The notes below the pieces were generated by a model that worked only from the letters and a program-made list of their open reading frames with translations, did no database searches and was not told the DNA's origin. Below are positions 105 to 19,839 of a stretch of DNA of 51,342 bases, in pieces. The position numbers and the translations under genes are program-made. This stretch comes from Armatimonadota bacterium (GTDB lineage Bacteria; Armatimonadota; Fimbriimonadia; Fimbriimonadales; Fimbriimonadaceae). The DNA is taken from positions 1 through 51,342 of the forward strand of contig JAIUNY010000023.1 in NCBI GenBank assembly GCA_020161505.1. The letters run 5' to 3'. Numbering within the stretch: position 1 is the first letter of the stretch; the number at the start of each line of letters is the position of its first letter.

Positions 105-156
105 GACATCAAGCTCGGAGAGGGCGTGGGCGGGGGTCGGTGGCAAGGGCCTGACG

Positions 157-182
157 CCCGACAGTCAAGGGATCGGGGCACC
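157..182 (+). repeat. Lone diverged arm of the palindromic repeat found at 18305-18442
   Basis: CCCGAC (157-162) followed after four bases by AAGGGATCGGGGCACC (167-182) matches the arm at 18413-18438 in 22 of 26 positions, the differences being confined to the four bases 163-166. No partner arm is visible nearby. It supports a dispersed repeat family rather than a one-off palindrome. Confidence 0.55.
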
Positions 183-214
183 ACGATGGGGGGAAATCGT
201 TCTGTGATGGGGAA

Positions 215-17660: not shown

Positions 17661-18869
17661 CTAAGACCTGAGCCTTTCCGCACTTTCTTTCAGTGCATTT
17701 GCCAGGGCGAGGGTGCTTTCTTTTGTGTTGGAACTGGCAAAACTCACACGGATCGTGGCCAGGGCATCGGCTTCCGAGAGACCTAGCGCGGTGAGAACGG
17801 GGCTCGGAGCCGTGCTTCGACTGCTGCAAGCGGCTCCGCTGCTGGTGCCAAATCCACGGGTGCCGAGCTCGATCACGAGGGCGTGAGCGACGAGCCCGGG
17901 GATCGTGATGCTGAGGATAAAGGGGCTCTGCTCTGGGGCGTTATTGTCTCGCGCATCGGGGATTTTGCTGATTGCTTCGAGCAGCACGTCCCGGAGTTCC
18001 GCAGCGTGGGCAAAGTTCTCGTCCTCCTCGTCACGGGCGATCTCCGCCGCGATCCCCATGCCGACGACGAGGGGAACCGGGGTGGTTCCGCTGAAGAACG
18101 TCTCTTGATAGCCACCATCGTTCGCCGCGTCTTCCGGAAGCTTGAACTGCGCTGGGTCGCGCAGGATGAAGGCTCCGACTCCCTGAGGGCCCCCGAACTT
18201 ATGGGCACTCAACGCGATCAGATCAGCGGTCTCCCAGTCGTCATCGTGGGTTTTGGCAAAGGATTGGGTGGCATCGAGAAATCTGAGTGCTTGACTTTCG
18301 GTGGCCGTGGGTGCCCCGATCCCTTCAGGGTCGGGATCACCAACCCCGTCGTTTCTCAGACCGGGGTGGAGAGTGGCCATTTCACCTGAGGTCAAGGCAA
18401 GGCTCATCCGTCCCGACCCTGAAGGGATCGGGGCACCCACGGTTTTCAGTGCGGGAATCCCGCCTGTCTCATTGCAAACTCCCATCATCGCGACCCCCAC
18501 GCCCGGCGGAACCAACACATCCCATCCCCGATTCTCGAGAACCATTCCGCCGTGGCGGGCCGCCGATTCACGAACCGCCGAATGCTCGAACGGACTCACG
18601 CCGAACGAACCACGGCTCGCCAGCAACCGCACAGCGAGATTGCACGCCTCCGTACCCCCCGAGCAGAAGAACACCTGCTCCGGAGCGACGCCGCACGCCA
18701 TCGCCACACGCTCGCGGGCCTGCTCCACCACAAACCGAGCTTTATCCCCCCACGGATGCAGGGACGAGGCATTGCCGAAATCCTCCCCGAGCCAGGGCAA
18801 CATCGCCTCCAGAACCCGAGGATCCAAAGGCGAGGTTGCGGCGTGGTCGAAGTAGTTTTCGCGCTTCAC
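17661..18869 (-). CDS. Cysteine desulfurase (NifS/IscS family) with an in-frame palindromic insertion
   Basis: 402 residues. PLP enzyme that removes sulfur from cysteine as an enzyme persulfide for Fe-S clusters and thiolated products. YFDHAATSPLDPRV, FCSGGTEACNLA, EHSAV (H96), FLDATQSF (D199), SAHKFGGPQGVG (PLP lysine K224) and TSSGAACSS (catalytic C348) are all present. Between NETGGIPALKT and TESQALRFLDATQ, where relatives have about 10-15 residues, about 46 extra residues (144-189) are encoded exactly by the 138-bp palindrome at 18305-18442. Removing them restores a normal-sized protein. The insert may form an exposed loop, so the enzyme may still work. The start overlaps the small membrane gene by four bases. 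Confidence 0.9.
   Translation of the reverse strand: MKRENYFDHAATSPLDPRVLEAMLPWLGEDFGNASSLHPWGDKARFVVEQARERVAMACGVAPEQVFFCSGGTEACNLAVRLLASRGSFGVSPFEHSAVRESAARHGGMVLENRGWDVLVPPGVGVAMMGVCNETGGIPALKTVGAPIPSGSGRMSLALTSGEMATLHPGLRNDGVGDPDPEGIGAPTATESQALRFLDATQSFAKTHDDDWETADLIALSAHKFGGPQGVGAFILRDPAQFKLPEDAANDGGYQETFFSGTTPVPLVVGMGIAAEIARDEEDENFAHAAELRDVLLEAISKIPDARDNNAPEQSPFILSITIPGLVAHALVIELGTRGFGTSSGAACSSRSTAPSPVLTALGLSEADALATIRVSFASSNTKESTLALANALKESAERLRS
18305..18442. repeat. 138-bp palindromic element with 32-bp perfect inverted repeats, inserted in-frame in a gene
   Basis: Arms at 18305-18336 and 18411-18442 are perfect complements over 32 bp (left arm begins CCGTGGGTGCCCCGAT). The total length, 138 bp, is 46 codons, and no stop is created in the desulfurase frame. 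The arms are translated as VGAPIPSGSGR and DPDPEGIGAPT. The 74-bp interior has a further imperfect stem (CCACCCCG with CGGGGTTGG on the coding strand). No transposase is encoded, and no exact target duplication is visible. A diverged single arm lies at 157-182. It behaves like a non-autonomous MITE or REP-like palindrome. Confidence 0.85.
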
Positions 18870-19063
18870 GAAGGCCTCACTTGGGGGTTCATGATCTTCC
18901 GGTCAATCCAAGCATAAGCCAGCATGGCGAGAACGAACCACAGGATCCCCCGCAGCCATGGAAACGGAAGGAGAAACCCCGCGCGGAACATGATCCCGTT
19001 GACCAAGGAAGCGAGGGCAATCCCAAGCACCAGGCTGAGCAAAGTGCGCCAAGTCAGCTTCAT
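18866..19063 (-). CDS. Small two-helix membrane protein
   Basis: 65 residues with two hydrophobic segments (LLSLVLGIALASLVNGIMF and PWLRGILWFVLAMLAYAW) joined by a short loop, and charged ends. The family is not recognised. It is supported as real by 4-base ATGA overlaps at both ends: with the PD-(D/E)XK nuclease stop upstream and with the cysteine desulfurase start downstream. It could anchor or couple the neighbouring products, but this is speculation. Confidence 0.65.
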   Translation of the reverse strand: MKLTWRTLLSLVLGIALASLVNGIMFRAGFLLPFPWLRGILWFVLAMLAYAWIDRKIMNPQVRPS

Positions 19064-19839
19064 TCAACTGGCTCCGGCGCCGCGTAGTCAAACTCAGGAT
19101 CCTTGCGGCAGAGGGGCAGGAAATCGCACGAGTGGCACAGGGGCTTGAAGGCAGGGCGATGATTTTCCCAGTCGCGATTCAGCATTTCATCGCCAATCGA
19201 GATGATGTCCTCGCGGAACTTGCTCACCTCCTCGGGCGTCAGCGAGACCGAGGCTTTGTCGCCGCTTTGCAGGGCGATGATGCTCGTCAGAACCGGGCGA
19301 TGAGGGTGCAGGTGCTCCAGAATCATCTGGTAGATGCCCATCGCCACGTCGAACTTGATCTCCTCCTCAGTCACGGTAGATCGCTTGCTCTTGTAATCCA
19401 CCACCTCCAGCGACCCATCCGGGAGTTCATCGACGCGGTCCACCCGACCCTGCAGGATGAACGCCCCTAAGTCCATCTTGATGAGCTTTTCGATATAGAT
19501 GGTCTCGGAGGTGACGGGTTCTTTTTGGATTCGTTCCGTGTAGTTTTTGACCAAAGACTTCCCCTCGGCAAGGGCCTGCATCATTTCGTCTTGCGAGCCG
19601 TACCCAGCGTCGATCCAGCTTTCTTCCAAGGCGGCGATGGCTTCTTCGGTGGTCGTTACTCCAGTGTCGCTGGCGTCGTGATAGCGCTGGAGGACTTGGT
19701 GCAGGGAAGTGCCAAAGCTGAAATAGCTCTTGGATCGCAAGTACCACTTGCCTCGGTCATCCAGATACGTCCAGCGGTACTTGGTCGGGCACGCCAGGTA
19801 AGTCGTGATCTTGCTCGGGCTCAGGGTCGGACGTCTCAA
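19060..19839 (-). CDS. PD-(D/E)XK nuclease with a Fe-S cluster motif (RecB/Cas4-like)
   Basis: 259 residues. The RecB-like nuclease order is clear: LSPSKITTYLACPTKYRW, H47 in GTSLHQVL, D134 in GRVDRVDELPDG, then LEVVDYKS (D148-x-K150) and the Y-Q pair in GIYQMIL (170-171). Four cysteines in the Cas4/AddB arrangement, C17 ... C235-x2-C238-x5-C244, should bind a 4Fe-4S cluster. Such proteins are DNA exonucleases of repair or defence; no helicase or cas genes are near. The start is TTG at 19839, just after a GGAGGAG held in a hairpin. It overlaps the next gene by four bases and is co-transcribed with a cysteine desulfurase, a plausible sulfur source for the cluster. Confidence 0.85.
   Translation of the reverse strand: MRRPTLSPSKITTYLACPTKYRWTYLDDRGKWYLRSKSYFSFGTSLHQVLQRYHDASDTGVTTTEEAIAALEESWIDAGYGSQDEMMQALAEGKSLVKNYTERIQKEPVTSETIYIEKLIKMDLGAFILQGRVDRVDELPDGSLEVVDYKSKRSTVTEEEIKFDVAMGIYQMILEHLHPHRPVLTSIIALQSGDKASVSLTPEEVSKFREDIISIGDEMLNRDWENHRPAFKPLCHSCDFLPLCRKDPEFDYAAPEPVE

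Follow-up and report, generated by a model that had tools for sequence, protein, structure and literature searches.

REP-like palindromic repeats in frame in a cysteine desulfurase gene and four other genes of an Armatimonadota bacterium

The cysteine desulfurase gene and its palindromic insert

The window analyzed here is the whole stretch of 51,342 nucleotides that forms positions 1 to 51,342 of contig JAIUNY010000023.1 (assembly GCA_020161505.1), from a draft genome of 38 contigs with 3.1 Mb and 59% GC. It contains a cysteine desulfurase gene with an in-frame palindromic insert, and a degenerate copy of the repeat concerned lies near the contig end.

17661..18869, minus strand: host gene, cysteine desulfurase of the NifS/IscS/DndA group, 402 aa, K224 and C348 intact (Pfam, alignment)
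18305..18442 (138 bp), strand not applicable: in-frame palindromic insert of 46 codons, residues 144-189, an inverted repeat missing from all aligned relatives; ends putative
18309..18336, plus strand: repeat arm 1, 28-nt REP-like hairpin unit GGGTGCCCCGATCCCTTCAGGGTCGGGA (covariance-model match, 50.5 bits, E 3.2e-8)
18337..18410, strand not applicable: 74-nt spacer between the arms (blastn)
18411..18438, minus strand: repeat arm 2, 28-nt unit as in arm 1, head-to-head (covariance-model match, 50.5 bits, E 3.2e-8)
156..183, minus strand: degenerate repeat arm near the contig end, outside predicted genes (covariance-model match, 25.2 bits; direct repeat D3)

The initial annotation had described a perfect 32-bp inverted repeat that interrupts the gene in frame without creating a stop codon, and both descriptions were borne out: the arms at 18305-18336 and 18411-18442 are 100% complementary and 74 nt apart, and the minus-strand frame at 17661-18869 is open over 402 aa. 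The repeated unit itself, however, has to be corrected to 28 nt (18309-18336 and 18411-18438) from 32 nt. Because the four outermost base pairs of the arms (CCGT/ACGG) do not recur in other copies of the repeat, positions 18305 and 18442 are putative and not proven as the exact boundaries of the insert, although 138 bp is the length expected from relatives. Without these 138 bp the desulfurase would have 356 aa, and the open frames of nine of ten relatives comprise 357-382 aa; the frame of the remaining one, with an unresolved start, comprises 430 aa. For the RNA of the 138-nt insert the predicted folding energy is -98.2 kcal/mol (z = -9.7 relative to shuffled sequences), and no Rfam family matched the window at the gathering score. 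When we searched the stretches around the repeats in this genome by blastn, no convincing second copy of the 74-nt spacer was found.

The 402-aa protein matches Aminotran_5 in Pfam (E 3.4e-36) and was assigned to the cysteine desulfurase group with DndA as the best-scoring model, no equivalog cut-off being reached. In an alignment of 26 proteins, the PLP lysine K224 and C348, both said at first reading to be intact, are invariant, and all 27 invariant columns are kept in the window protein. Alignment with relatives, which had been proposed as a check, revealed that residues 144-189 are missing in all ten orthologues, six congeneric and four from other genera. The AlphaFold2 model, built with 25 relatives, has a mean pLDDT of 85.6 and a core mostly above 90, while residues 151-192 are below 50, and Foldseek matched the model to human NFS1, IscS and other solved desulfurases (E 1e-29). 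The predicted structure fits an intact desulfurase fold that carries a disordered loop derived from the insert. The adjoining gene at 19060-19839 of the window encodes a PD-(D/E)XK nuclease that matches Cas4 weakly.

The 28-nt repeat family and its placement

The desulfurase arm is the 28-nt repeat GGGTGCCCCGATCCCTTYAGGGTCGGGA, which forms a hairpin of its own, and the consensus of the family is GGGTGCCCCGATCCCTTCAGGGTCGGGA with an 8-pair stem. With at most 3 mismatches allowed, the first 20 nt of the arm have 42 matches in the 3.14-Mb genome and the reversed control has 0, showing that this palindrome did not arise by chance. The 14-nt core GTGCCCCGATCCCT has 42 exact occurrences in the same genome, and a covariance model of the 28-nt unit gave 114 matches at E <= 10, the best 105 of which we used as the working set of good copies. 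The initial annotation had called for a genome-wide search for the arm, and this search yielded roughly 100 additional good copies, several of which lie in other genes in frame.

The pairs of the stem are held in 93% of the cells compared, with two-sided changes at 3 pairs, which gives modest covariation support within this genome. A single 28-nt arm folds at -13 to -14 kcal/mol, and paired arms are arranged head-to-head in 19 cases versus 2 tail-to-tail and 5 tandem. The tag position beside the stem reads GTGC in nearly all copies of this genome. The family shows the general features of REPs, being imperfect palindromes of 20-40 nt, repeated in one genome and mostly extragenic, with head-to-head dimers as the commonest arrangement and copies downstream of genes. 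In addition, the arm is commonly part of a longer composite that continues with CAATCGACGCCCTCCCC...GGGGGAGGG, some of which is translated in MutY and DUF5693. Downstream of the arm there is often a second and longer palindrome, CAATCGACGCCCTCCCC...GGGGGAGGGTGCCCGAAGGGCGGGAGGGGG (L091, L103, L092, L101, L102 and others), which is likewise translated in these two genes.

These matches bear on the notion that the desulfurase has here a functional loop of 46 residues that is old and palindromic in looks only, a notion that we regard as barely credible. In favour of such a loop, the corresponding segment of canonical desulfurases is somewhat longer than that of the relatives compared. Against it, each arm is an exact match to the genome-wide repeat at the DNA level, neither arm has diverged from the other, and the residues are missing from every aligned relative.

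We then determined the placement of the arms relative to genes, which were called with a home-made finder on the stretches around the repeats. Eight of the 105 arms lie in accepted genes, against a random expectation of about 91 with about 87% of the DNA coding. In this tally the script flagged 8 ORF overlaps, from which 2 were rejected and to which 2 MutY arms were added, the start of that gene having been called too late. Copies at L101 (CcmB-like) and L209 (aminotransferase-like by eye) were not accepted as in-gene copies, as the repeat is located upstream of an apparent true start or of the conserved N-terminus, and a seemingly intragenic match at L127 was dropped for want of the second half of the hairpin. 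Convergent gene pairs flank 56 of the 105 arms and a divergent pair flanks 1, compared with 48 convergent and 53 divergent among background gaps of at least 30 bp in the first batch of DNA around the repeats. The Fisher p value of 2e-12 for this difference overstates its strength since the arms of one dimer are not independent, while the direction is clear. Based on this placement, the view of the element is refined to a mainly intergenic repeat, the in-gene copies being a surviving minority. No same-strand flanking pair resembled two halves of one gene by Pfam (both neighbours were classified at 12 of 20 intergenic sites), and no hidden inserts were seen by eye in the flanking NadA and QueF genes.

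Several copies lie at most about 350 bp from contig ends (window 157-181, C13:28, C28:310, C31:325 and C33:175), suggesting that the repeats probably broke the assembly and that the copy number is a minimum.

In-frame copies in five genes

The eight in-gene arms are distributed over five genes, with two in the desulfurase, three in MutY, and one in each of the other three. Pfam supports the family of all five host genes.

MutY (L091, contig 3): three arms and part of a second palindrome, all within a single open frame; the conserved PWR is immediately followed by the insert of about 78 aa
DUF5693 membrane protein (L103): one arm; insert of about 63 aa
Nucleotidyltransferase (L170): one arm; insert of about 18 aa
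Carbon-nitrogen hydrolase (L163): one diverged arm; insert of 18 aa

Alignments revealed that the inserts of MutY, the DUF5693 protein, the nucleotidyltransferase and the carbon-nitrogen hydrolase are missing in seven of seven congeners. The structure model of MutY was poor (mean pLDDT 61) and was left out of the evidence. The consensus arm has no stop codon in five of its six frames, and the peptides encoded by the arms in genes are of the GAPIPSGSG type, the PTLKGSGHP type or PDPEGIGAP. Of the 114 frames that the 19 head-to-head pairs offer, 47 were open, so that about one random dimer insertion in seven would be both in phase and open. Five in-phase, open inserts out of five would be unlikely to arise by chance, an argument that is weakened by ascertainment: an open frame is how in-gene copies are recognised and broken genes are harder to spot, so the impression that the repeat is always in frame is partly produced by the way copies are found.

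The desulfurase might be a decaying pseudogene that is open by chance after a neutral insertion. Its loss might be tolerated, given a further desulfurase-like match in this genome at C6:85930-87039, but the gene retains 402 stop-free codons and its 27 invariant columns including K224 and C348, orthologues are present in congeners, and the pattern recurs in MutY and in three further genes whose families are intact; we consider decay improbable. It seems less probable still that the insert is untranslated, either cut from the RNA or bypassed as a hairpin by the ribosome. Hopping elements bypassed by ribosomes exist in some yeast mitochondria and provide the model for this, and the perfect 32-bp stem of the mRNA, with its -98.2 kcal/mol, would suit it. 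On the contrary, bypass needs no open, in-phase insert, yet all five inserts are open and in phase, and the single-arm inserts in two genes can give only a short stem of -13 to -14 kcal/mol. Finally, an assembly artefact, in which a repeat was collapsed or wrongly joined into the gene, is hardly to be expected: the genome is a 38-contig draft and some contig ends lie in or near repeats, but the spacer is single-copy, homology is continuous on both sides of the insert, and the in-frame pattern is repeated in five separate genes.

We suggest that, very probably, a head-to-head dimer of a species-specific REP-like repeat was inserted into the desulfurase gene and survived there by keeping the frame in a surface loop. 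The repeat unit would spread as a short piece of non-autonomous DNA, possibly in the form of a hairpin or dimer; insertions that break genes would be purged, while those that are a multiple of three in length, free of stops and placed in a tolerant loop would persist. Persistence may be helped by an arm that is stop-free in five of six frames and that encodes small flexible peptides. The insert would be translated as a disordered excursion with the enzyme presumably staying active, and the cell probably makes enzymes with extra, repeat-encoded floppy loops. The five pairs of genes with and without the insert, relative to congeners, offer a view of how much insertion a conserved enzyme tolerates, and the rarity of the repeat in genes together with the in-frame survivors amounts to a natural experiment on purifying selection.

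Distribution, mobility and relation to known repeats

No copies of the repeat were found in seven other species of the genus, and among 84 other genomes of the family matches were confined to G092, which belongs to another genus. The G092 variants have matched changes in the stem (GTGCCCCCATCCCTTCAGGGTGGGG), and the tag is GTGG in four of its eight copies. In 291 genomes of the phylum, the covariance model gave nothing further that was convincing; matches in G275 and G071 look like chance. Searching the exact arm against the contigs of 84,980 species, where our genome may be masked, gave one match, in an LCP-89 MAG, and against viral contigs none. In this MAG of a distant phylum (NJBN01000005.1, L131 88-161), the exact arm stands head-to-head with a different GGTGGCC hairpin. 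The patchy distribution fits a mobile element with occasional transfer, while the lone MAG match could be contamination or convergence.

The initial annotation had read the insert as an in-frame mobile palindromic element, and this reading is supported by the absence of the inserts from relatives and by about a hundred more copies, several in frame. Mobility is inferred here from copy number and absence in relatives. The nearest relatives are less than 50% identical in protein, so no target-site duplication or empty site can be defined. Among the features of MITEs, inverted arms are present, no obvious target duplication was seen by eye in the flanks of the listed pairs, and no parent element was found. 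A search of the 38-contig draft for the Y1 transposase PF01797 gave no match at E <= 0.001, while the controls gave matches in 5 of 14 named genomes; a Y1/RAYT gene flanked by the repeat, as in REPIN-RAYT systems, was not found in the draft genome. An IS481-type integrase-core transposase (L124 3503-4648) lies beside one repeat copy. A family that multiplied to roughly 100 copies in one species of its genus and entered at least five genes in frame, without Y1/RAYT, might represent an unrecognised way of moving REP-like DNA, a possibility that we regard as rather doubtful, and it raises the question of what mobilises REP-like units without RAYT.

Several known systems resemble this family. As in REPIN/BIME with RAYT, REP hairpins form inverted pairs around a spacer that varies, but no PF01797 protein was detected in the genome. 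The enterobacterial RU-1/RU-2/RU-3 repeats in genes, as described in PMC2759123, are likewise small mobile repeats with open frames fused to genes; they differ in that their units are longer (103-168 bp) and their hosts unrelated. The parallel with Rickettsia palindromic elements, drawn in the initial annotation, stands for in-frame insertion in unrelated genes, five of them here. The Rickettsia elements, reviewed in PMC10969869, are palindromic units some 150 bp long that have entered unrelated genes in frame and are predicted to be tolerated, as here. In contrast, the present host has 59% GC and 3.1 Mb and most copies are intergenic single or paired 28-nt arms, and the likeness is one of description.

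The family behaves like the GTAG- and CGTC-tagged REPs, which occur as intragenic dimers in several non-Rickettsia bacteria (PMC3733652, 2013). Their in-gene copies encode 20-30 aa and clusters 43-82 aa, and many lie in repair genes. The present repeats share with them hairpins of 20-40 nt, a predominance of head-to-head dimers, a mostly intergenic position between convergent or unidirectional genes, and a few copies in genes, often of DNA repair, represented here by MutY. They differ in the absence of a detected Y1 transposase from the draft genome and in the tag, which is GTGC (GTGG in the four G092 copies) and not GTAG or CGTC; a GTGG variant has been reported in Opitutus terrae (PMC3733652). 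The phenomenon of in-frame palindromic repeats is already known, and this family and its host are additions to it, giving a case of repeats turned into protein sequence outside the lineages where it has been described.
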